From Dicyema japonicum (taxonomy: Eukaryota; Dicyemida; Rhombozoa; Dicyemidae): a DNA stretch of 64,000 nucleotides. The stretch is taken from NCBI GenBank assembly GCA_011109175.1, contig RDEW01000013.1, positions 1,188,912-1,252,911 on the forward strand. The letters run 5' to 3'. A program made the translations under genes and the position numbers. The notes below the pieces were generated by a model. The model was not told the DNA's origin and ran no database searches. It saw nothing but the letters and a program-made list of their open reading frames with translations. How positions within the stretch are numbered: position 1 is the stretch's first letter; each line of letters starts with the position of its first letter. This document shows positions 3,081-59,275 of this stretch, piece by piece.

Positions 3081-3590
3081 AAACTTATGGTTCTATGTTC
3101 GACTCTTGCTGCTGTATATTCAAACTGATGGTTTCACACATCTATGAATCTAAGGGTTTGACTTGCATTTACTCGTAAACGAAGCAGGGGTTAAAATTAT
3201 TTACTTCAGCAATAACTTATTTAATAACCTAAAACGGGATGACACATGTTATTAATTCATATGGGACTGAATCGAATCTTGCTGCTGTACATTCAAAGGG
3301 TTCGACTTCTACGATTCTAAGGTTTCGACGGGTGACGTCGTCATCAGTGAATTGATCGAATTAGAGGGTTAAAAAATCTCAATACTCATAGTAAAAAGGT
3401 TTTAAACAGCAAACAAAATTTTCATTATTGGATTATTGGTTTTAGAATCAGGATTGGTAATTATATTAATGTTCTCGATATCAGATAGAGTATATTCTCT
3501 AGGCTGTTTGCTGTATGAAGGCAAAATACATTTTTTAAATTTGCATGCACATCGCGTTAAATATAAAAGAACACATACGTTAGCAAATTA

Positions 3591-4031
3591 ATGTTAACTT
3601 TACTGATGACATTGGTTTCTTTAGTAATTAACAGCGTACCAATAAATTCAACTCAAAGATTACAAGGTAATTTTATAATAGTTGATTTTACTAGATCAAC
3701 AATGTGAAAGAAAGGCTATTAGGCTTGCAGTGCGAATTGACGAATGTAGGGGATAATCTTGGAATTAAAATCCAGCGTTGATGCTATCCGAAATGAGAAT
3801 GAAGATAATTCTAACGAAGAATATAATAATTTAATGTATTATTGCACATTAGGGTATCTTCGGGAACATTATGAACATTTAAAAAGGGATAACCCAACGA
3901 CTTATTGTGGCCAAATTCCCTATCTAAAGATAGCACTGTTAATGATTTACGATAACGTGAAAGCCACAAATACAAGATTAAGTGAGTACACTACATGTGT
4001 AAATAGTACACCGTCTAATCATGATAATTAG
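3591..4031 (+). pseudogene. Small secreted Cys-containing protein, copy A
   Basis: Exon 1 (3591-3666) encodes a signal peptide starting MLTLLMTLVSLVINS. A 28-nt GT-AG intron (3667-3694, gtaatt...ttttactag) follows, then exon 2 from 3695, in frame through the splice. Exon 2 encodes a charged domain with Cys in QCER, DEC, YYC, TYC and TTCVNS contexts and ends at 4031. After DEC there is a one-base deletion relative to copies B and C (9 instead of 10 bases before 'tctt'), which shifts the frame. An intact product would be about 135-145 aa and secreted. I recognise no known family. The frame is preserved over most of exon 2 in three copies, which suggests past coding use. Confidence 0.55.
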
Positions 4032-4141
4032 TTAACTAATGGATAATTTCACTTTTCCGATTAAATAGTTCTTTATTCATTAAACAATTAGAGTGGCATT
4101 AGCAATAATTCAGGCTATAGCTGGCCGGACATAGGAAACTA

Positions 4142-4354
4142 ATGAAATACTCATCCTTTAAAGATCGTTCCGTTTTGTCTAATTGTCTCTATTATATCTG
4201 GACTGAAAGAATTGGGAAACGAGTTTTAATGAAATTGGTTATTCGATTTAGAAATTTTAAAGTTCCTCGGATTTGGCGTAGTTTGTTGCTATCACAATGT
4301 CTCTTGAAAACAGAGTCTGATTTGTTGCTAACTTATTTTTCTTTGAATTATTAA
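4142..4354 (+). CDS. Conserved open frame downstream of secreted gene, copy A
   Basis: This 70-codon frame starts MKYSSFKD and contains RIGKRVLMKLVIRF. It is also open at 13119-13334 and 19597-19803, with length differences in multiples of three. That is consistent with a 3' exon of the secreted-protein gene or a separate small protein. There is no signal peptide and no recognised domain. It could also be non-coding sequence that has not yet decayed. Confidence 0.3.
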   Translation: MKYSSFKDRSVLSNCLYYIWTERIGKRVLMKLVIRFRNFKVPRIWRSLLLSQCLLKTESDLLLTYFSLNY

Positions 4355-4859
4355 AAGAGCACAAAATAAATTTTCATGCTAAATTTAACAAAATTAGATA
4401 TTAATAGTTAAATGAATCCAAAATTATCTTTACATCAGATTTTTAAGGAGAAAACGATTTATCATGAAACAAGACAATCAAAATTATCCAGCTGATCAAA
4501 TGGAATGGCTGTTTATTAGGACAACTGCCAGAGAAATCTATTGGAACAACCATTCAGTTTCCAGATGCTCATTATAGAGCATAAACTTTTTTTTGCTTTA
4601 ACTCAAAAAACAACATTTTTAGGATTTTTAGAATTGCTATTTTTATAATCTGATATGAAAATAATAATATATTCACCATTATAGCTGTTCTTTCTCTTAT
4701 CATGTTCTACTAGAGTGGTGTGTTATGATATACCTGTTTCCTGCTGCGGCCAGTGCTAGAGTATCATGATAAAGGATTATCTGTTTTCTCACACTCCTTG
4801 TGAGTGCTTCCAAAAGCAAGGATGAAAAGTCTTATTCATTTTTCATCGTTTCTAGATTC

Positions 4860-5720
4860 ACTTAAGTGGAATATTGGTACGTCTGTGTTTCATCGCTGCG
4901 GAATCGGATTTTTCCGCATTTTCCGCCCTTTATGAAAAAGTTTCCTAACTCCTTACAGATACGTTGGGACCCCTGGCGATTTATCAACGTTTCCGTTTCT
5001 GAAAAAAGACTGGGATGGATATGGTGTCTGATTGCATTTGCTACATGATCATCCGCAAGAGCGTTCACACTTGCTAGACCTACAAGGGGGAAGAGTGAAT
5101 CTCTAAGTAGAACATGCATATTCAATCGTCGTTAGTATAACTTGGAGATATAGTTTGCAGATACAAGCAGTAGCTGGAAAGGCATCTTCTTATGTAACTT
5201 TTAAGACGCTCCATTTTCGAAGACCCTTTGTTAACAGTTCTTCCTTGTTTTTTAAAACGTCATAAGAAAGTCAAATGTCACTCCAAAGATCTACTGGATT
5301 CGCGTATAAGGAATCGGAATGTTTTATGAGGAATATCTCAAGTCCACCCTTAAATCTCCTGTCTTTAGTAAATAGGCAGAACTGAGACATTGATGCAGAC
5401 ACAAACAACAAATTAACGGATAGCCAGTCACACACCTGGTTGAGGTGTGATTGAACCACCACCGCATCCCTGGAAAGAAATTCCTCCCTTGCAGCAATAA
5501 TCAGGTCGTCCGCGTAGGATAAACACATAGTGTCTTGATCTTTGGACCTCTATTAATTTCAAATGGGAAGGAATATGCTCCAACCTGATACAGCAAGTAT
5601 AAAGACATCTTAGATATTCATAGAGTGCCGGGGTGCATCATTGAAAAACTCATAGCGATCAGGAAAGAGACTATTAGCAAAGCTATCGTCCCTTCCCACC
5701 CTTGTTTTTGGAACCACTAT
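4860..5720 (-). pseudogene. Jockey-like LINE RT relic in unit X, copy A
   Basis: The minus strand reads LSYADDLIIAAREE (about 5520-5480), then SHLNQVCDWLSVN, and further downstream LYLQVILTTIEYAC (about 5155-5115). These match the RT catalytic box, the following helix and the 'LY...I...LEYA' stretch of jockey-like LINEs. Frame breaks are frequent. The same relic occurs at 13810-14650, and its 3' part at 20285-20585, so it was amplified as part of the array unit. Confidence 0.65.
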
Positions 5721-6471: not shown

Positions 6472-9074
6472 ATTATTATTATTATTATTTATTAAAGCAC
6501 TTTCACGAAAGCCACAATGATTATAGCCCCGCATGTGCAACACTCAAAGAAACAATATTTATAGTTAGTCTTTTCCATCTTCCTCTGTCGAATGCGAGTG
6601 ATCTCAATTCGTCCAGGTCGTCTCCCGTCTTTAGATTTTTTCTCACACGATTTAAGTCTTTGTTTAGGGCTGTCGGAAGTGTCGATCTAGGTCGTCCGCG
6701 GAAGGGTTTTTCGCATCTGTCAAAGTAATCTTCCATCGCTTTGTTAGCGGGTGCGTCCGGGTTCATTCTTAGTACATGCCCAAATAGCCTCCACCGGGCA
6801 TCTATCACATCCTTGCTGATGTAAGAACACATACACTTGTTGTAGATACCAGTGGTTGATATTCTACGTGGCCACTCCATTCCGAGTAAGCTTCTTAGTT
6901 GCCTTCTATGGAACGAATCCAGTTTCAATAGTTCTTTGTTGAAGGAACTTCCCCATGTCCCAGCGTTATACAGTAGGATCGGTTTCACAAACGCGTTGTA
7001 AAGCCTGCATCTGATGTCAATTCCAAGTCCTTTGGCCCTTAGCCATCCTTTCTTCAGTTTAGCCATTGCCGCATTTGCCAGTGTTTTCCTCCTTAGTACA
7101 TCTTCAGCGTCTCCTAGTAGAGAGCCGAGCTTATTAGTACGTCTCCATCTTTCATGAGTAATATCGTCTTCTCTTTTGATTTCCGTAATTTCAGTTTTGT
7201 TAACATTTACGCTGAGAAACCATTTCTCAAGCTCCGCAGGTGCATTTTCTAGCAGGTGTTGGAGTGCGGTCACATCCCGTGATACAAAATCCACATCATC
7301 CGCATAAGATGTCTCTTCTATGTCTCCTATATAGCATTTACGGAGGTCGCGGAGTGCAGATTCAAGGTATATGGTGAATAGTAAAGGGGAGAGGGAATCA
7401 CCCTGGGGTGTCCCAATCGTTGTTTTGAAACTGCGGGAAGTTGCTCCTTCTGTCCTCACAGATAGTCTTGTGTTCGCAAGTAGTAGTCTGATTATCCTAA
7501 CCGACGATTCATCCAATATTTGCTCAAGCACATTCATCAGTTTCTGTCTGTTTATTGAGTCGAAAGCTCTGGAGAGATCTATTCCCAACACGGTTGTTGC
7601 GCTCTTGAATCTTTGGTGCGTTGCGCAGCGCCATCTGTGGCTCCATACAATGTCTGCCGTAGACCTCCCTTCTCGGAACCCACTTTGACTTGCTGGTAGG
7701 TATAGATCCGCCACACCCTTTATCCGGCTTAGTGCAATGTTTGCCAGCACCTTGCGTATCGAATTCAGAAGTATTATCGGGCGGAGATTTTCTACTGGTC
7801 CTTTTGATTTGTTCGGTTTTTGTATGGGTATTAATAATCCATTTCCAAGTCCTAGATCGGTATTAGTTTCAAAGACGTCATTTAGGGTTTTTGCAATTGT
7901 GTCGCTAAGTTTTTTTGGCCCATATTTTAGGAGCTCAGGGCTTATGTTGTCCGGCCCAGCACTCTTGTTGTTCTTCAGTTTATTTATCGCTAATTCCACC
8001 TCTTCCACTGTGATTGGGATTTTTAGCGCCTTTGCTTCTCCCTGGAAAGGGGGAAAGTCATTATTTTCTTTATTCAACAGTGTTTCGAAGTGTCGTGCAA
8101 TCAATTCTGCTTTTTCTTCCGGGTTACCCACTTTGTCCTTTCTTTGTCCGCAGCAGCCGCAAAGCCGCATACATCCTTGAATTGTCTTTTAGGCATTCCA
8201 CATCTTTTAATAGGGATGTAATAATTTCCCGTGAGTGTTTTCTGTTCATCTTTTTGATTTTCCACTTTAGTTCCCTTTGTTGGATATTAAGCTCTTTTTT
8301 TTACTCTCGTCTGACGTGTTTGCCGCTTTTAGTCGTAGCTCTCTGCAATGCTTTGCCATATTTGGCACGTTCGGGTGGTGATCCAATTTTAGGGCGTGAT
8401 GATTTCGAACTCCAAGGCATATTTTGGCCGACTTGGAGATTGCCTGTTTTGTTTGATCCCACATAGTTCGTACTGATGATTCCGGTGCGGTTTTCACCAT
8501 AAGAGTCTCGATTTGTTCGTGATATTTAGCTCTACAAGTTTGCTCTAACCACAATTTTTCTGTCTGAAAGTATATATTGGGTCTTTGTCTCGCCTTCTTC
8601 GCGTTTTCAATGTATTTTTTACCAGTCAGGTGCTTTTTTACACAAAGTTTTGCAATGACGATCCTGTGGTCGCTGTCGGTTGTTGTTCCCTGGTAGGAAC
8701 GTGCATCATTTATCAGGTGTTTATCAGACTTTAGGCAGATAATGTAGTCGATTTGATTATATATATTCACGGTCTCTCCGACAGAGTTTTTTCTTTGTCC
8801 GTGCCACGTCGTCTTGTGGCAAGCTGAGTGCGTAAATGCCGTGTTGCACAGGAAAAGGCTATTTGCCTCACAGAAGTTTACCAGAGAGGCTCCAGATGCA
8901 TTTCTCCTTCCGCGTCCGTGTCTTCCAATAGAGGATTCTTCGGGCCCCATTCGCATTCCGGCCTTTGCATTCATATCTCCCGCAACAAAGACAAGAGGCG
9001 AGGAAGCATTGTTAGAGTATGTGCTTGATAGTTCTGAGTAGAATTCCTCAGTTCACCGGGGTTCTTGATTACTC
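6472..9074 (-). mobile_element. 5'-truncated EN-RT LINE with TAA-repeat tail
   Basis: This non-LTR retrotransposon is on the minus strand. It ends in a (TAA)n-type 3' tail at 6472-6495 and is 5'-truncated at 9074 inside the endonuclease domain. The direct repeat gtctt flanks it (6467-6471 and 9075-9079). The uninterrupted site is visible at about 15430-15450, where '..atagtcttccagttaa..' runs through. It therefore inserted at the border between array half-units. Its last ~60 bp are shared with the tRNA-SINEs at 27120 and 57803. Confidence 0.85.
6521..9062 (-). pseudogene. LINE endonuclease/reverse transcriptase ORF, frameshifted
   Basis: Reading from 9062 downward, the frame gives the C-terminal part of an APE-type endonuclease: VFVAGDMNAKAG, then NQIDYIIC and the SDHR motif near 8660. 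A linker leads to the RT (8170-6521), with AGPDNISPELLKYG, GIDLSRAFDSINR, GTPQGDSLSPLLFTIYLE and SYADDVDF. The tail includes WRLFGHVLRMNPDAP and FRGRPRSTLPTALN and ends in AHAGL. The frame shifts about three times: near 9045, in the A-run near 8290, and near 8140. The 549-residue RT part is uninterrupted, so the insertion is recent or the indels are assembly errors. The tail resembles RTE/CR1-like elements; I do not assign a clade. Confidence 0.85.
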
Positions 9075-9206: not shown

Positions 9207-10038
9207 CATTATTATTAAAAGCACTTTCACAGAGCCAAAGAACATTATATAAACAAAGGTTCCGTTTTTACCTCACATTTCGCTATTTGCTTCACTAGGC
9301 ATCTCCATCGCCCTATGTTTTGAGAATCTGTCTGTAGATCCTCTAGTTTTGTTCCAATTCCATTAAGTTCCTTGTTTAGAGCCACAGGGAGGGTGAATCT
9401 GGGCCTTCCTCTGAAAGATGGTATGTTCTCATTGTCAAAGTAATTATCCATTAATATATTTGCAGGGACGTTTATGTAGCATGTGCCAAAACAGTCTCTA
9501 TCTTGATTAAATAATGTCGATGCTAATTGTACTCGATTTTGCCAGAGAGTAGAATTTCTTATTTGAAATCTTCTTGGTCAACCTATGCCCATTAAATTGC
9601 GTAATTGTTTTCAATGAAATACATCTATTTTCTTGAGCTAGCTCTTTTTCCTCCAACTTTCGTCAATATATTTTAATAGCCCTGTGATTCTTATCTGTTC
9701 AGCCTTTTCCTGATTAACTCGCAGAGACCAATTCTTTAATTATCACAAAGATTTTATCTAGAGCAAGTCCAAGATCATTTTCTTACATAAAATCTATGTC
9801 ATCTGCATGTATAATCTCCATCGGCATGCATCCTTTATATTATGTTCTACAAGACTCAATGGCGCTTCGAGGTATACGGCGAATAGAACCGGAGATAGAG
9901 AGTCCCCCTGAGGTATTTAAACTTTTATCCCAAAAGGCTTCGTGTTCCCAACTCGTACAATTAATTCAGTATTAGATAATATGAAACGGACAAGTCTTGT
10001 GATATCCTCATCAAGGAAACTCCCAGCAACGCACAGAA
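9207..10038 (-). pseudogene. LINE relic in half Y1, with target duplication
   Basis: The minus strand encodes the LINE C-terminus MDNYFDNENIPSFRGRPRF and, upstream, a degraded RT. The 3' end 'attattattaaaagcacttt' matches the tail of the LINE at 6472-9074, so both belong to one family. The direct repeat acattgaat flanks it (9198-9206 and 10039-10047). Unoccupied sites are seen near 28945 and, diverged, near 24865, which confirms an insertion that predates the array duplication. Confidence 0.8.
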
Positions 10039-12150: not shown

Positions 12151-12567
12151 CTTTAAAAACGCAGGGGTAACAATTATTTACTTTAGCAATACCTTATTGA
12201 ATAATCCCAAAACAGGATAGCCCAGTGTTATCAATACATATAGTTCTAATTTCGAATCTTGCTGCTTTTTATTCCAACTGAAGGTTTAACACATCTAAAA
12301 TGTTGAAGGTTTGACGAATGACGTTTTCATTAGTGAATGGCTTTAATAAAAGGGTTAAAAATCTCAATAGTACCAGTTTAAAGGTTTAAAGGTCAAACGG
12401 AATTTTCATTAATGGATTGTTAGTTTTAGAATTAGGATTTGTAATTATATCAATGTTCTCTATATCAGATTGGATATATTTTCCTGGCTGTATGAAAGCA
12501 AAATACATTTTTTAAATATGCATGCACATCGCGTTCAATATAATAGAACACATACGTTAGCAAATTA

Positions 12568-13012
12568 ATGTTAACTTTACTGATGACATTGGTTTCTTTA
12601 GTAATTAACAGCGTACCAATAAATTCAACTCAAAAACTTCAAGGTAATTTTATTAAAGTTAATTTTACTAGATAAACAATGAGAAAGAGAGGATATTATG
12701 CTTGCAGTACAATTTGACGAATGTAAAAGAAAAATCATAGAATTAAAAACTCTCGCTGATGTTATCCGATTCGAGAACAAAGATAATTGTAATGAAGAAT
12801 ATAATAATATAATGTATTTTCGCACATTTGGGCATCTTCGCAAACTTTATGAAGAATTTAGTTGGAACAGCACAAATGCTTATTGTGTGCAAATGCCTCA
12901 TCTAAGGTTGGCACTGCTAATTATTTGCGATAACGTGAAAGTCACAAATACAAAATTAAGACTGTACACTACATGTGTAAATAGCACATCGTCTAATCAT
13001 GAGAATAGTTAA
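12568..13012 (+). pseudogene. Small secreted Cys-containing protein, copy B
   Basis: Exon 1 (12568-12643) encodes the same signal peptide as copy A. A 28-nt intron (12644-12671) separates it from exon 2 (12672-13012). The third spliced codon position that is Cys (TGT) in copies A and C is TGA here, a nonsense change right after the splice. The rest of exon 2 stays open to CVNSTSSNHENS, with Cys at most of the family positions. If the stop is real the copy is dead, although exon 2 shows little other damage. Confidence 0.55.
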
Positions 13013-13118
13013 CTAATGGATAATTTCAATATTTCTGTTAAATAGATCTTTATTCATTAAATAATTAGAGTGACATTAGCAACAAATCAGGCTATAGCTG
13101 GCCGGACTTAGGAAACTA

Positions 13119-13334
13119 ATGAAATACTCATCCTTTAAAGATTGTTCCGTTTTGTCTAATTGTCTCAATATATCTGGAGTGACTGGAAGAATTGGGAAAC
13201 GAGTTTTAATGAAATTAGTTATTCGATTTAGAAATTTCAAAGTTCCTCAGATTTGGCGTATATTCTTGCAATTACGATATCTCTTGGGAACAGAGTCTAA
13301 TTTGTTTCTATTTTTTTATTCTTTGATTTATTAA
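13119..13334 (+). CDS. Conserved open frame downstream of secreted gene, copy B
   Basis: Counterpart of 4142-4354, 71 codons, containing GVTGRIGKRVLMKLVIRF. It is open in all three array copies. Function unknown; possibly a 3' exon of the gene just upstream. Confidence 0.3.
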   Translation: MKYSSFKDCSVLSNCLNISGVTGRIGKRVLMKLVIRFRNFKVPQIWRIFLQLRYLLGTESNLFLFFYSLIY

Positions 13335-13809
13335 AAGAGCAAAAAATAAATTTTCATGCTAAATTTAACAAAAAATAGGTTAATAAATGAATCCACAATT
13401 ATCTTTACATCAGATTTTTTATGAGAAAACGATTTATTACGAAACAAGACAATCAAAATAATTCAGCTGATTTAATGGAATAGCTGTTTACCCTGACAAC
13501 TGCCAGAGAAATCTTTTGGAACAGCCATTCGGTTTACCGATGCTCATTACAGATTATAAAATTTTTTTGTTTTAACTCAAAAAACAACATTTTAGGATTT
13601 TTAGAATTGTCGATATTTATAATCTGATTTGAAAAATTTTAAATATTAACCATTATAGCTGTTCCTTCTCTTATCATGTTCTACTATAGTGGATGTCATG
13701 ATATACATGTTTCCAGCTGCGATAAAGGATCATTTGTTTTCTCACACTATTTGTGAGTGCTTCCAAAAGCAAGGATGGGAAGTCTTATTCATTTTTCATT
13801 GTTTCTAGA

Positions 13810-14650
13810 TTCACTTAAGTGGAATATTGGTACGTCTGTGTTTCATCGCTGCGGAATCGGAATTTTCCGCCCTTTATGAAAAAGTTTCCTAACTCCTTAC
13901 AGATACGTTGGGACCCCTGGCGATTTATCAACGTTTCCGCCTCTGAAAAAAGACTGGGGATGGATATGGTGTCTGATTGCATTTGCTACATGATCATCCG
14001 CCAGAGCGTTCACACGCTAGACCTACAAGGGGGAAGAGTGAATCTCTAAGTAAAACATGCATATTCAATCGTCGTAGTATAACTTGGAGATATAGTTTGC
14101 AGATACAAGCAGTAGGTGACAGGGCATCTTCTTATGTAACTTTTAAACGCTCTATTTTTCGAAGACCCTTTGTTAACACTTCCTTTGTGTTTTTTAGAAA
14201 CATCATAAGAAAATCAAATGTCACTCCAAAGATGTACTGGATTCGCGTATAAGGAATCGGAATGTTTTATGAGGAATATCTCAAGTCCACCCTTAAATCT
14301 CCTGTCTTAGTAAATAGGCAGAACTGAGACATTGATGCAGACATAAACAACAAATTAACGGATAGCCAGTCACACACCTGGTTGAGGTGTGACTGAACCA
14401 CCACCTCAGCCCTGGAAGGAAATTCCTCCCTTGCAGCAATAATCAGGTCATCCGCGTAGGATAAACACATAGTGTGTTGATCTTTGGACCTCTATTAATT
14501 TCAAATGGGGAAGGAATATGCTTCAACCTGATACAGCAAGTATAAAGACATCTTACATATTCATAGAGTGCCGGGGTGCATCATTGAAAAAACTCATAGC
14601 GATCAGGAAAGTGACTATTAGCAAAGCTATCGTCCCTTCCCACCCTTGTT
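13810..14650 (-). pseudogene. Jockey-like LINE RT relic in unit X, copy B
   Basis: Near-identical to 4860-5720, with LSYADDLIIAAREE on the minus strand at about 14465-14425. Frame breaks differ slightly from copy A, as expected for independent decay after duplication. Confidence 0.65.
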
Positions 14651-15537
14651 TTTGGAAGTACTCACATGGAGTAGGAGAGACAAATGATTCTTTATCATGC
14701 CACTCTGGCTCTGGACGCAGCAGGAAACTGGTATATCATGACATTGCTTCGAAGCCGTATTTTTTAATAATTTATATAAACTTTCTAACAATAGCTAGTG
14801 TCAATATTGAGTACGAGCTTACCCAGGATTACCCTCGGAAAGGCTGAGACTATAAAGAAAAATAAATACAATATATCGTTGGGCAGTTTACTTTTTGAAC
14901 AAGTTGTCGTCAAATATTTGTACTCATTGGAAACTGATACTGACTTCGCTGAACCTTAATGGATCGTTTATCATGAGGAGGAAAAAATAAGAGAGAAAGG
15001 AGCTGTCTTATTTAACTCATTTTTTTCACAAAGTAAAATAAATAAAAAAAAAGTTTTGGTGATAAATTTATGTGAAAACACAAGTAAAATAGTTTGAAGA
15101 ATTGCAGATATTAATCAAATTATTTTTATTTGTAAAAGTATACAACTTTCGGAAGTGATTGAATGTTTAGAAGAAAGCCTGCATCTTCCACTTACCATGA
15201 AAATGAAAGAGGTGTGAGGCTCGGTAGATATAAGAAACTCTAAATTTAAGATCGAATGGAGATACGGGTTCGAATATCGGAAAACAAAAAAAAACTTGGA
15301 AGATAAATATCAGAAACAGCATGTTTAGAATGATTCTAAGTATGTTGATGATCATAATAAAATAACCAAGTAACGTGTTAGAATAAAGTATAACAATGAA
15401 AGACAAGTAAAGTTTATAAAATGTAGAAATAAGCCATAATAGTCTTCCAGTTAATATACCAAAGCATGAACATTTCTAGTTTCATAGAAACGGACTAGCC
15501 TGGATATTTCTTAGGAATAACGTGAACGACATTGAAT

Positions 15538-17190: not shown

Positions 17191-19046
17191 TTACGGATCC
17201 AGATTCCTTCGGGTCGGCATGGAGGATGGAACCCACTTAGCTTTTCCTTATCCAAGGCAAAAGAGATTGGATTGATTGGGAAGTTTCTCTCCCAATCGGA
17301 TTCGTTTGCAGGAATGAGAAAAGGCTCTCTCGCACAGTAGTGGAACAATGGAGACCACAGACGTTGGATGACTCGTATGATTGGGGAACTGGGATTACCT
17401 AACTGTCTGACGTTTATGTCTTTCTAGTGATCCGGTTATCCTCTTCCAGGTAGCTTTTTTCCCTCAGATTTTTATAGATCTGATTAATTCTTCGTTCAAT
17501 TCTAAATCATCTATAGTCATTGGGAGATTCAGACTCACTTACTTTTTCAATGGTTAGTGCTATCACTCGCGTCGCATTTAGCTGAGGGTTCTATTCTCAG
17601 ATCGATACTTGCTTGGTCCAAAAATTTATTATGCTGTTTGCATTTTTCAATTCCTAGGGACGTCATTAAATCCGCCAAAATTAAATGCCTAATTTCATGG
17701 CGTCAAAAAGAATCTTTCTCTTCTCTATTGCAGTGGAGGGTTCCCATAATAGTGGATTCAAAAAAGATGATGCTGAGAAAGGATATTTCCGACGGAAAGG
17801 TATATCTGGGATAATTAAAATAATATAAATAAAATTTTAAAATAATTACCAGTATGAATTTGGTATGAAAGTAACCTATTTCTTATTTTCATTCATAACG
17901 CAAAATAATTCTCAAAATATCATTTTAGAAATTATGAGTGCAAGGAATTTTGTGATCTCTACTCGTTTTAAATTTCATTTCACTTTATTGAGATATAAAA
18001 ATTATTTTTTGCTGAATTTTTCATATTTGACCCATTTTCTAAAATAACTAACTCGTAAATCAAAATGAAAAATTAGAATATGTACGGAAATACAGTCTGC
18101 TCTGTAGAAATATGCATTTTTTGTGAGAAATATGGAATCTCTTAAGCAAGTCCGACTGAATAAAGAAGAAATCCTATGTGCATTCTGTTCTCTGTCAAAT
18201 TTGGTAAATTAAAACTTATTGCTTGAAAATTAAATTCTTAATCTGATATTGCTTTTGAAAAAACCTTAGAAGTTTAACTTTATGACTTGCATCGATCTGG
18301 AGAAACCTCACGTGTTGTAAAAAGAAAACAAGAAATTATTGGGGAGGTGTTTTCTAGTGCGGCACAGTAGTTGAAAGATCTTTCTACTATCTCCATGACC
18401 ATTTCCACAAATGAAGATTACCTTTATGAAAACTCTTCGCCTAAAATTGAAGTGATGTCGCGACGGTAGGAAGTGTGATGAAAATGTAAGAGAGTAAACC
18501 AACTCGCTATATTGTAAGCCTGGGTAAAATAAATAAAACAATTTATTTTCTTGATGAAAAAAATCAATAGTATATATAGACGAGGTGCAACCTGTTTGGA
18601 TGTGTGCAAAAAGCTGTCATTAGCTTTCTACCATTAAAAACGCAGGGGTTAATAATTATTTACTTCAGCAATACCTTATTGAATAATCCCAAAACAGGAT
18701 AGCCCAGTAATCAATACATATGGTTCCAATTTCGAATCTTGCTGCTTTTTATTCCAACTGAAGGTTTAACACATCTAAAAGTTGAGAGTTTGACGGGTGA
18801 CGTTTTCATTAGTGAATGGCTTTAATAAAAGGGTTAAAAATCTCAATAGTACCAGTTAAAAGGTTTAAAGGTCAGACGGAATTTTCATTAATGGATTGTT
18901 AGTTTTAGAATTAGGATTTGTAATTATATCAATGTTCTCTATATCAGATTGGATATATTTTCTCGGCTGTATGAAAGCAAAATACATTTTTTAAATATGC
19001 ATGCACATCGCGTTCAATATAATAGAACACATACGTTAGCAAATTA

Positions 19047-19490
19047 ATGTTAACTTTACTGATGACATTGGTTTCTTTAGTATTAACAGCGTACCAATAA
19101 ATTCAACTCAAAAACTACAAGGTAATTTTATTAAAGTTGATTTTACTAGATAAACAATGTGAAAGAGAGGCTATTAGGCTTGCAGTGGAATTTGACGAAT
19201 GTAAAAAAAAAATCTTAGATATAAAGACTCTCGTTGATGCTATCCGAATTAAGAACAAAGATAATTGTAATGAAGAATATAATGATATAATGTATTATTG
19301 CACATTTGGGAATCTTCGCAAACTTTATGAAGAATATAGTTGGAACAGCACAAATGCTTATTGTGTGCAAATGCCCCATCTAAAGTTAGCACTGTTAACT
19401 ATTTGCAATAACGTGAAAGCCACAAATACAAGATTAAGACTGTACGCTACATGTGTAAATAGTACACCGTCTAATTATGAGAATAGTTAA
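19047..19490 (+). pseudogene. Small secreted Cys-containing protein, copy C
   Basis: Exon 1 (19047-19121) is one base shorter than in copies A and B: 'gtattaac' for 'gtaattaac'. The signal peptide is therefore followed by a frameshift and an early stop. The 28-nt intron (19122-19149) keeps its GT and AG. Exon 2 (19150-19490) is fully open, with the Cys residues QCER, DEC, YYC, YCVQ and TCVNS. Exon 2 here is the best preserved of the three and defines the family frame. Confidence 0.55.
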
Positions 19491-19596
19491 CTAATGGATA
19501 ATTTCAATATTTCTGTTTAATAGATCTTTATTCATTAAATAATTAGAGTGACATTAGCAACAAATCAGGCTATAGCTGGCCGGACTTAGGAAACTA

Positions 19597-19803
19597 ATGA
19601 AATACTCATCCATTAAAGATTGTTCCGTTTTGTCTAATTGTCTCAATATATCTGGAGTGACTGGAAGAATTGGGAAACGAGTTTTAATGAAATTGGTTAT
19701 TCGATTTAGAAATTTCAAAGTTCCTCAGATTTGGCGTAGTTTGTTCCAATTACAATATCTCTTGGGAACAGAGTCTAATTTGTTGCTATTTTTTTTTCTT
19801 TGA
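19597..19803 (+). CDS. Conserved open frame downstream of secreted gene, copy C
   Basis: Counterpart of 4142-4354 and 13119-13334, with GVTGRIGKRVLMKLVIRF. The C-terminus is shortened by a T-run difference. Function unknown. Confidence 0.3.
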   Translation: MKYSSIKDCSVLSNCLNISGVTGRIGKRVLMKLVIRFRNFKVPQIWRSLFQLQYLLGTESNLLLFFFL

Positions 19804-20284
19804 TTTATTAAAAGAGCACAAAATAAATTTTCATGCTAAATTTAACAAAAATATAGGTTAATAAATGAATCCACAATTATCTTTACATCAGATTTTTTTA
19901 TGAGAAAACGATTTATTACGAAACAAGACAATCAAAATAATTCAGCTGATTTAATGGAATAGCTGTTTACCCTGACAACTGCCAAAGAAATCTTTTGGAA
20001 CAGCCATTCGGTTTACCGATGCTCATTACAGATTATAAAATTTTTTTGTTTTAACTCAAAAAACAACATTTTAGGATTTTTAGAATTGTCGATATTTATA
20101 ATCTGATTTGAAAAATTTTAAATATTAACCATTATAGCTGTTCCTTCTCTTATCATGTTCTACTATAGTGGATGTCATGATATACATGTTTCCAGCTGCG
20201 ATAAAGGATCATCTGTTTTCTCCACTATTGTGAGTTCTTCCAAAAGCAAGGATGGGAAGTCTTATTCATTTTTCATTGTTTCTA

Positions 20285-20588
20285 GATTCACTTAAGTGGA
20301 ATATTGGTACGTCTGTGTTTCATCGCTGCGGAATCGGAATTTTCCGCCCTTTATGAAAAAGTTTCCTAACCCCTTGCAGATACTTTGGGACCCTTGGCGA
20401 TTTATCAACGTTTCCGCCTCTGATAAAGACTGGGGATGGATATGGTGTCTGATTGCATTTGCTACATGATCATCCGCCTGAGAGTTCATACGCTCGACCC
20501 ACAAGGGAGAAGAGCGAATTTCTAAGTAGAACATGCATATTCAATCGTCGGTAGTATAACTTGGAGATATAGTTTGCTGATACAAGCA
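20285..20588 (-). pseudogene. LINE relic 3' part in unit X, copy C
   Basis: This is the low-coordinate portion of the relic seen at 4860-5720. It is truncated at the array boundary near 20588, so the YADD-bearing half is missing. Confidence 0.5.
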
Positions 20589-21095
20589 GTAAATGGGTCT
20601 GGAAGCGAGAATGTCACAAATACTATATTTTACCAGTACAAGATGTGTGTGGACAGTACATAATCACCGTGAGAATTAGTTAGCTAATAGATATTTTTAC
20701 TTTCTTTGTTAAAATCGTTATTTATAAATTTTTTTATTCATTAAAATAATTTAATGGCATTATCAAAAATTTAGGCTACAGCTAGCCGAACGGAGGAACC
20801 AAAGAAATAATCATAAATTGGAGATCGTTTCGATTCGTCTAAATTATCCTCGACATTACTTAAGTGACTGAAAGACTGGGCAAACGAGTTATCAATAAAA
20901 TTTTAATGCGATTAAAAATTCACAGTTGCTAGGATTTGGCGTGTTGGTGGCAATATCTAAAGTCTCTTGCGAGCTTGAAGGTATTCTCTTCACTTTATCA
21001 GCTTTTTATGTTTTTTGGCAAAATTTTGTATGCTTTTGACAACTCAAATAATATTTTCAGGATTTTTAGAATTCCTGATATTTATAATGTCCTTT
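20589..21095 (+). repeat. Older, diverged fourth copy of the secreted-gene region
   Basis: Sequence from 20620 ('gtcacaaatac', then 'gtacataatcaccgtgagaat') to about 21090 ('aggatttttagaattcctgatattt') aligns with the end of exon 2 and its downstream region in copies A-C, with many substitutions. Signal-peptide exon and intron are absent. The array once extended further right. Confidence 0.6.
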
Positions 21096-35470: not shown

Positions 35471-35934
35471 TTGAGAAATCTTTCTTAGATTTTTTTAAAC
35501 TGATTGGTTATAAAATTTTAACAAAATCTGTGACAAAAAATCTTTAATAATTATAACGCTAAATATTAATGCTCCGAATATATTCCTAAAATAATATCCT
35601 TGCGCAGTGACGGTACCATAGTCAATGATAGTTTACTGAGGCGTGGTTAAAGATAAATGAAAACTGCAACCAATTACCGCATGTTTTTGCTTTGCTGGAC
35701 AATCCAATTTCTGTAAAATAAAAAAAAAACATACTTCATATTTCATTAACATATATTACGATTAAAGGAAATCATTGTATAGCAATCCCTAATTGTCCTT
35801 AGCCTAATCTTTGGTCAAATTGATTATCAAAAAGTTCGACGGGAGCATCAATCGACCATTATTATATTGGTGTAGACCGATGATATACGTCATAAAAGTT
35901 ACCGGCATGAATCTAATCTGTAAACTCAGAAAAT

Positions 35935-38204: not shown

Positions 38205-39234
38205 TTATCGCCCATACCTTTTCGGTACATCGTCTTCAGTCTCCTCTTCAGTCTCATAAGAATAGTCATCATCGTCCTCATTGTCAACATTAGAAGTATA
38301 TTTGACTTTGTTGGAATAGAAGAGGTCATGGTTTTGTCCGCCACTTCACTCCGTTTATCAAATGGGGAATTACGAGCGGATCCACTATTTCCATAAAGCG
38401 CATTTTCAAAAATCTAAATTTGAGAACGAAAAAACTCTGAAATCATGTTTTGGATCGACAATCTTTAAATTATTGTAGCAGTTCGACAAATAATCCAAAA
38501 TGCTAGTGCTGTGAGCCAATTCTATCATTATAAAGTTTTTTCAAAATTTCCTAAAATAGTAAATTCTAAGGCCAACCTGCAAGTCGCCAATTTTCTTTTT
38601 CCTCAAAGTCCAGCAATGTTCGATGAATTTTCGCGGAGGAACTTGAAGATTTCATCTTTACTTCTCGCAGCTTTCGTTCGTACTAAAATAAAGTCGATCA
38701 ATACTTTGTCTGTGTCTCCGTATTGAATCGTATTTTCAGTCACCTGATCGGCGAGTTTTCGTTCTTTATTTTTGTTTTTCAAATCTTTGTTGATTTGCGA
38801 CTAAAATCTTTATAAAGCTTGATTACCTTCACTACACTCAAAATCCCCTTATATTTCTGTAACGGATCCACTACCTTTGACTGCATTCTCTCTGCCTATG
38901 GATTAGATCCTTCAATGAACCTGAGTTGTTCTGTAATCTTGAATTGAAGCTAAGTTTTCGGCGAATTTTTCATAGGCAGCTTTTTCGGAGGGATTGGAAG
39001 CTTCTCCGTTCGAATAGGCGATTAGCTCGCTTACAATTTCGTCACCTTAAAGATAATTTTTATTATTGCCTCGATTCCTTAATTTCGTTAGCTTTTCAGT
39101 GTAAACACTAAGAGAAGTACATAATCTCCCAAAATGATTTTCTATTGCAGTGATTCGTCTCTTGGCGAATTTATTTAATATTTCTCTGCGAACGTTTACA
39201 TCTAATTTAACCCTTCAATAGTATCTCTGTCCAT
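38205..39234 (-). CDS. CIBAR1-like: CIBAR/FAM92-like BAR-domain protein, nine exons
   Basis: Exons (minus): 39234-39212, 39185-39070, 39045-38921, 38895-38827, 38800-38705, 38682-38577, 38521-38436, 38413-38350, 38305-38205. They join in one frame to 786 nt, 261 aa plus stop (human CIBAR1 is 289). Introns are 26, 24 (GC-AG), 25, 26, 22, 55, 22 and 44 nt. Family-matching stretches are AIENHFGRLC, KLRNRGDEIVSEL, IQDYRTTQAERM, SKVVDPLQKYKGIL, TLLDFEEKE, FENALYG and an acidic tail EDDDDYSYETEEETEDD. In vertebrates the protein dimerises through its BAR domain, binds Chibby and acts at the ciliary base. Phases agree at every junction, which strongly supports the model. Weak point: the 55-nt intron leaves about 12 residues fewer than the human helix there. 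The symbol is by family resemblance. Confidence 0.88.
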
Positions 39235-58139: not shown

Positions 58140-58745
58140 TCAAAATTTATCCAAATTGCTCGAATCCCCTGATAACCATCTTGTGGTCGCTGACAGTCGT
58201 CGAGCCTTCATATGAACGTGCGTTTACTAGAAGGTGTTTGTCTTTAGCCCGGCATATGACATAATCTATTTGGTTGTATATTGGGACCAGCTTTCCCTCT
58301 GAGTTCCTTCGCTTCCCATCCACGTAGTTTTGTGGCAGGCAGGATGCGTAGATGCAGTATTGCATAGGAAAAGGTTGTTTGCCATACAAAAGTGACCAAG
58401 TATTGTCCCGGGTAGGTTTCTTATTCCACGTCCATGTTCTCCCAAGAAAACGTCATCCGGGTTATTCTTCATCCCGATTTTTGCATTCAAATCCCCAGCA
58501 ATGAGTATTAGTGATGACGACTCATATTCGTTGTACGTTTGTAACAGTGTTGAATAGAAGTCGTCTAGTTCTGTCGGATCTTTCGCTACTCTCCCGCAGT
58601 GTGGCGCATAAACATTTACAATTGTCAGAAAGCTCTTCGAAGGAGGTAAGTCGTTTAGCCGGATTTGTATAACACAGATCCTGTCATTCACACTCCATAT
58701 ACGGTGGACTGCACTTGTCAACTTTGAGTATATGGCAAATCCAAT
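58140..58745 (-). pseudogene. LINE APE-type endonuclease fragment
   Basis: The minus strand reads SFLTIVNVYAPHCGRVAKD, LILIAGDLNAKIGMKNN and, after a shift near 58315, NQIDYVICRAKDKHLL then TTVSDHKMVI. These are the 'VYAP', 'GD.NA' and 'SDH' motifs of LINE endonucleases. It overlaps in content with the truncated endonuclease of the LINE at 6472-9074 and belongs to a related element. It is cut off at 58140, next to the SINE target site. No RT follows. Confidence 0.8.
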
Positions 58746-59275
58746 TTTTTGAAATAATTAATAAAATAAAGTTAAAAATAATTAACCTTACGATTTATTT
58801 TTTATCTTTTTAACTTGATAATTTTTTCTTAAATATAGAACGTTTAAAAATAATGAAAAAAACAGAATTTGTTAAATTTTAATGTAAAATATGAAAATTT
58901 AACTTTATTAACTTTATCACCCCTAGCTATAACTTATACTCAAACATAAAACTTAAACCCTAACCATAAACCTTAGTCCTAACTTTAAACCTTCACTGTT
59001 GGATTGTGACGGGAATAAATATACTAAATTCATTTTAATTAATATTTATGTTTTCACATTTAATAATAATTTCTTCATTTTCAGCATCGATAGATCCCTC
59101 GTCGACATTATAATCTTCACAAAAAAGATTTCGTTCTCGTCGAGCATTTATGTTTGAATCTTTTTACTGAAAATTGATTCACATAAATATTTAGATCCGA
59201 ACATTGAAGCGTTTTTATAAGCATTTGTAAGTATATTCGAATATTTTTCTTTGATAAGTAAACGTAAGTCAATTT
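58746..59275. other. AT-rich, with a pogo fragment near 59085-59160
   Basis: 59085-59160 ('ttcagcatcgatagatccct', 'gacattataatcttcacaaa') matches 21510-21585 in the pogo relic. The rest shows nothing. Confidence 0.4.

Follow-up and report, generated by a model that had tools for sequence, protein, structure and literature searches.

Introns of 22-26 nt as the apparent rule in a dicyemid genome, with a donor signal lying mainly on the exon side

The CIBAR/FAM92-like gene at 38205-39234 (minus strand) raises the question of whether near-minimal introns are the rule in this genome, and by which signals introns of such a size would be recognised. All positions refer to the window, i.e. the whole stretch of 64,000 nt that was analysed. 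In an earlier model the gene has nine exons, and when its eight introns (26, 24, 25, 26, 22, 55, 22 and 44 nt) are removed a single frame of 786 nt is left: 261 codons and a stop. With this model the protein matches the Pfam family FAM92 at 82.5 bits (E 4.1e-23, cut-off 23.6). It also matches the CIBAR1 structures 8ceg and 9uhd (E 1.1e-20). Used as a query for homologues, the CIBAR protein gave 668 candidates, none of which passed.

In the model with restored frame six of the introns are clearly short. Following the minus strand, they are intron 1 (26 nt, 39186-39211), intron 2 (24 nt, 39046-39069), intron 3 (25 nt, 38896-38920), intron 4 (26 nt, 38801-38826), intron 5 (22 nt, 38683-38704) and intron 7 (22 nt, 38414-38435). 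All are GT-AG with the exception of intron 2, which is GC-AG. Intron 8 (44 nt, GT-AG, 38306-38349) lies beyond the matched domain, and its basis is the frame alone.

Intron 6 deserves a separate comment. The 55-nt version (38522-38576) cuts out a part of the conserved domain. With a 26-nt GT-AG intron at 38551-38576 instead, and an X at each of the flanking frame shifts, the FAM92 score climbs from 82.5 to 111.8 bits (E 4.4e-32), in a version of the protein that stops before the last exon. Because of this increase we prefer 26 nt plus two frame shifts, and the 55-nt intron is probably a misreading. The sequence-only reading had described one frame that follows a known family, with six of eight introns at 22-26 nt. 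The 786-nt frame and the FAM92 match were reproduced, while the intron count would be corrected to seven of eight, in the preferred reading and together with the two frame shifts. Homopolymer errors in the assembly were suspected as a cause of the frame shifts, but elsewhere in the genome the seven junctions that are not intron-like do not clearly lie in runs, one of the seven being in a run of at least five.

A second claim about the window was that three copies of a gene, labelled secreted-type by eye, share an intron of 28 nt. When the copies are aligned this intron is indeed present at all three sites, on the plus strand at 3667-3694 (copy 1), 12644-12671 (copy 2) and 19122-19149 (copy 3). 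The coding portion of the alignment has one 1-nt gap each in copies 1 and 3, and there is an additional 1-nt difference adjoining the stop. The gene sits in repeated blocks at 3184-5713, 12161-14657 and 18642-20591, which are 85-92% identical. Two other examples from the sequence-only reading, the membrane-protein copies and the TPR-like relic, were not located. Further, the window holds a complete U4 spliceosomal snRNA gene on the plus strand (35596-35725; 59.7 bits, gathering score 46), the sole genome match among the best 41 of 4946 candidates. Long open frames are found on the minus strand at 6521-8188, 8267-9052 and 58147-58757; we assume that they resemble pieces of non-LTR retrotransposons.

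The assembly that contains the window comprises 64,672,829 bases in 191 contigs. Searching it with four Pfam families gave 40 matches for TCP1, 142 for protein kinase, 70 for kinesin and 29 for SNF2. From these 281 family matches 172 were used, chosen by eye for having a neighbour. For neighbouring matches of one gene, the gap in profile positions was multiplied by three and subtracted from the gap in nucleotides to give the intron length, a method that is blind to lengths divisible by three. The 111 neighbouring pairs provided 64 usable junctions; the other 47 were dropped for long or poorly aligned gaps.

As many as 54 of the 64 family-anchored junctions are 22-28 nt, with a mode of 22-23 nt and a median of 23 nt. 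The most frequent lengths are 23 nt (22 junctions) and 22 nt (19), followed by 25 nt (nine), 26 nt (three) and 28 nt (one), and lengths of 38, 46 and 59 nt occur once each. No junction falls at 14-21 nt. For seven of the 64 the offset lies between -1 and 13 nt, which is not intron-like. In conserved kinesin and SNF2 genes (L069, L070, L084 and L095) neighbouring matches are offset by -1 or +1, which may reflect assembly errors, alleles or decay.

The sequence was read for 52 junction stretches and for 12 more from loci already sampled. In 57 junctions, those with a predicted length of 15-70 nt, we looked for GT...AG, with about 59 start positions for each. At exactly the predicted length GT...AG is found in 45 of the 57, the highest count of all 256 dinucleotide pairs (mean 11.2, runner-up 29). 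These 45 GT-AG introns measure 23 nt (21 introns), 22 nt (13), 25 nt (eight), 26 nt (two) and 59 nt (one). Twelve junctions had no single GT-AG solution, several of them fitting at +/-3 nt, and were excluded.

What is found at these junctions, which are supported by homology and restore the frame, is the GT...AG of U2-type spliceosomal introns, and they probably are such introns. Judged by the junction lengths, introns of about 22-30 nt would be the rule, as for the mini-introns of dicyemids. The earlier suggestion that near-minimal GT-AG introns are general in this genome appears to be borne out.

Next, we studied the splice sites, using 44 introns shorter than 30 nt from the four conserved families (TCP1 16, kinesin 14, kinase 10 and SNF2 4). 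On the exon side of the donor, G at -1 is found in 26 of the 44 introns (p 8.5e-7) and A at -2 in 24 (p 0.0013), both clearly above exon composition, and C at -3 is not enriched by the same comparison (9/44, p 0.37). On the intron side there is no excess over intron composition at any of four positions: A at +3 (15/44, p 0.24), A at +4 (14/44, p 0.36), G at +5 (9/44, p 0.10) and T at +6 (21/44, p 0.46).

The same picture is obtained when donors are compared with other GT dinucleotides. On the exon side, the true donors match CAG at 1.34 positions on average, as compared with 0.63 for 302 exonic and 0.36 for 61 intronic GTs, and the excess over the exonic GTs was not equalled in any of 20,000 permutations. 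For intron-side matches to AAGT the values are 1.34 at donors, 1.01 at exonic GTs (p 0.017) and 1.20 at intronic GTs; some intron-side signal may remain. Among 52 donors, i.e. the 44 plus those of six CIBAR and two LUC7 introns, a single one starts with GTAAGT or GTGAGT. The code of the 5' splice site is one-sided: -2 and -1 are kept and +3 to +6 are at background, with a weak residual in comparison with exonic GTs.

The interior of the mini-introns is rich in T (45.8%, compared with 26.6% in the exon flanks). Close to the acceptor there is an excess of A, which occupies -7 in 24 of the 44 introns (p 0.0002, uncorrected and one of ten positions tested) and -8 in 20 (p 0.011). This A is a candidate branch point. 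If length were measured, exons would be predicted to avoid chance GT...AG pairs of intron size; in 6091 nt, 105 exonic pairs 22-26 nt apart were counted against 116.8 (sd 9.6), a depletion that is not significant, as 11% of the shuffles are as low.

In the ciliate Paramecium bursaria a one-sided donor is tied to the absence of LUC7L, according to the available part of the report (PMC12862383), and for this reason the genome was searched for LUC7. The LUC7 family model finds one gene, on contig C53 (169.9 bits), together with a small piece in the same stretch (both of the two candidates were scored). A query with an approximate sequence of human LUC7L retrieves only the C53 gene; the LUC7L type was not found, in an assembly that has gaps. 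Nine of 20 relatives of the C53 protein in the protein database have a source name, and seven of these nine are "LUC7-like 3"; of the other two, one is named as a LUC7-like protein and one as a hypothetical or uncharacterized protein. The C53 protein is 45-47% identical to the named LUC7L3 proteins of animals and 32% identical to human LUC7L. By names and identity, rather than by a tree, the C53 gene seems to be nearer to LUC7L3 than to LUC7L.

Two further families are linked to the intronic class of donors. PF05971, which we take to be the METTL16 family, and PF08648 have one genome match each; controls indicate that PF05971 also includes bacterial enzymes. METTL16 and SNRNP27K families therefore appear to be present, and this counts against the explanation that we favour.

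That explanation, which we consider fairly probable, is that these are U2-type mini-introns without the intronic half of the donor, recognised by exonic AG|GT together with length, in a genome whose only LUC7 found is of the LUC7L3 type. Ordinary U2-type introns would have been reduced genome-wide to some 22-26 nt, with a mode of 22-23. In this process the intronic donor half, +3 to +6, which would be read by U1 and then by U6, would have been abandoned, while the exonic A at -2 and G at -1 would have been retained. The single LUC7, of the type tied to exon-side donors, would be what serves them, the LUC7L/LUC7L2 type being unfound; the loss of that type may have permitted donors to shed their intronic signal or may have come after this. 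In the RNA, such an intron would be defined as one unit by AG|GT, its near-fixed length and the abundance of T in its interior, and a further cue would be a branch A some 7-8 nt upstream of the 3' end.

Mini-introns are no novelty in dicyemids. Published introns have a mean of 26.2 +/- 1.9 nt in D. acuticephalum (n=16; PMC2222250) and a median of 27 nt in Dicyema sp. (PMC6543705), as given in the accessible parts of these papers. The remark of the sequence-only reading that dicyemids have introns of about such a size agrees with the literature, and the mini-intron headline is therefore already known. The most serious alternative is that this published trait is all there is, with a weak donor that results from AT-rich drift under intron definition and a LUC7L that lies in a gap or has diverged. 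We find this unlikely. It would accommodate the gaps in the sampled assembly (stretch L015 is all N, and L026 is N at 9861 of 10000 positions) and the weak intron-side signal that persists relative to exonic GTs, but the loss is one-sided, with exonic AG|GT strongly retained and +3 to +6 at background. Further, two different queries retrieve the LUC7L3-type gene only, and the pattern agrees with that in an independent lineage of the same LUC7 state, as far as the available text of PMC12862383 goes.

Given the weak intronic half of the donors, the U1 snRNA itself is of interest. It has at least 11 genome matches among the best 41 of 1105 candidates, the top one at 69 bits with an Rfam cut-off of 69.5. 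The copies L002-L011 vary in sequence and are all below the Rfam gathering score, and several of them have similar upstream sequence, as judged by eye. The 5' end was read at ten loci: nine have ACTTACCTG and one has ACTTACTTG. We take ACTTACCTG to be the canonical U1 5' end, and the sequence that matches it is presumably CAG|GTAAGT. The U1 5' end is not altered to suit the donors.

That U1 keeps a canonical 5' end though the donors mismatch it could also be understood in a different way, with the candidate branch A expected some 15 nt away from the donor: a 22-nt intron would be too small to hold U1 and U2 at once, +3 to +6 would have been lost for this reason, U1 pairing would matter little, other early factors would choose the donor, and the LUC7 classes would be irrelevant. 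The exonic positions, which also pair with U1, are conserved, and we regard this account as improbable, more so than the preceding one.

In addition to the junctions above, we parsed 18 stretches that are likewise anchored by family matches but have wider gaps, using weights trained on the first set; they were kept out of the statistics. By the first-listed parse, seven of them (L101, L102, L104, L105, L107, L113 and L115) contain introns of 22-26 nt only, eight contain introns of at least 29 nt and one (L106) has an intron of 19 nt, while two (L096 and L114) were left unparsed. The parses with at least 29 nt may represent real longer introns or failures of the parse. In L103, an all-short reading that preserves the kinase motifs ranks third among the parses. 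Candidate introns below the 22-nt floor of the junction set are those of 19 nt in L106 and 21 nt in L032. At the other extreme, no long introns were secured for a comparison of donors; the candidates are 88-nt introns in L097 and L098 (kinase and SNF2 genes; donors GTAATT and GTTTAC) and a 101-nt bridge in L110, which may conceal a small exon. C148 also has a gap of about 3 kb, with L099 and L100 at its ends.

We also analysed a free sample, consisting of 200 kb of contig C1 (with stretches of N) and the window, by gene finding with splice-site weights, which yields more genes than codons alone. In the better segments 18 of the 69 bridges measure 22-26 nt, while the lengths of the other 51 scatter from 17 to 250 nt; the long lengths were not used because many bridges cross retrotransposon-like frames. 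The share of 22-26 nt is higher in two cellular genes whose types were assigned by eye, a coiled-coil gene in L023 (8/12) and a transporter-like gene in L024 (3/4). The latter stretch also holds an 18S rRNA fragment inside the contig (L024:3455-3849, model positions 1178-1606 of 1831, 146 bits). Mitochondrial COX1 had no match in the assembly.

Gene finding from codons only, with no length prior, was discarded as too weak, as decoys nearly equal GT-AG in the number of bridges; eight segments passed, one of which (L023) is outside the chaperonin loci. When lengths are free, the parse gives 51 bridges for GT-AG and 43-47 for five decoy consensus pairs, while bridges of 20-29 nt make up 31 of the 51 for GT-AG and 10 of the 46 for TG..GA. 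It is thus very improbable that the mini-introns are artefacts of frame repair, in which indels or decayed genes are bridged by chance GT...AG, for although the 55-nt CIBAR intron is probably such a case, and the junctions that are not intron-like and the similar bridge totals of the decoys would fit the same idea, the predicted lengths heap at 22, 23, 25 and 26 nt with none at 14-21, the next dinucleotide pair reaches 29 at the exact length where GT...AG reaches 45 of 57, and short bridges favour GT-AG.

It remains to compare this genome with known systems. The closest is Dicyema, where, as here, spliceosomal introns of about 26-27 nt are the rule in an animal, with a D. japonicum genome near 65 Mb. 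As described in the available part of the report, the D. japonicum assembly is 67.5 Mb with a mean intron length of 38.2 nt, and dicyemid genes were used to train AUGUSTUS beforehand (PMC6736024). Both the size of the present genome (64.67 Mb) and its intron lengths agree with a dicyemid. The junctions analysed here are somewhat shorter (mode 22-23, median 23 nt) than the published 26-27 nt of Dicyema, by a method that does not see multiples of three. Short introns in a simplified parasite are also known from the orthonectid Intoshia linei, but their median is 57 nt, by the accessible text of PMC6543705.

The literature that was searched, which covers few subscription papers and others in part, gave no description of the donor code or of the LUC7 state of dicyemids. 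The combination of a one-sided donor with a LUC7 of the LUC7L3 type only is apparently new for this group.

Donors have been divided into two classes, U5-type and U6-type: loss of LUC7L/LUC7L2 shifts splicing off U6-type sites, and loss of LUC7L3 shifts it off U5-type sites (PMC11732430, available part). The donors described here resemble the exon-side class, that of U5 loop 1, which seems to be nearly the sole class in the introns read. In yeast METTL16 and SNRNP27K were lost, by the same partial source; since both families are present in this genome, it has not followed the yeast route of losing both. A dicyemid may be a natural animal experiment for two classes of donors that are served by different LUC7 proteins, and it helps to bound the minimum size at which an animal intron still holds a branch point.

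A similar case outside animals is that of Paramecium bursaria. In the available part of the report its short introns keep -2 and -1 and have no consensus at +3 to +6, LUC7L is absent and LUC7L3 is present (PMC12862383). Short introns, donor pattern and LUC7 state are all shared with the present genome. We propose tentatively, with somewhat less than even confidence, that an animal lineage has lost the intronic half of the donor genome-wide together with LUC7L/LUC7L2, that an unchanged U1 works there with AG|GT and 22-26 nt, and that the end state described for this ciliate has been reached independently. If the loss of a LUC7 class and of a donor half coincide in unrelated lineages with short introns, the link becomes testable by comparison. 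The two systems differ in that P. bursaria is a ciliate whose splicing was studied with expression data, as far as that report was available (PMC12862383), while the genome studied here is that of an animal.
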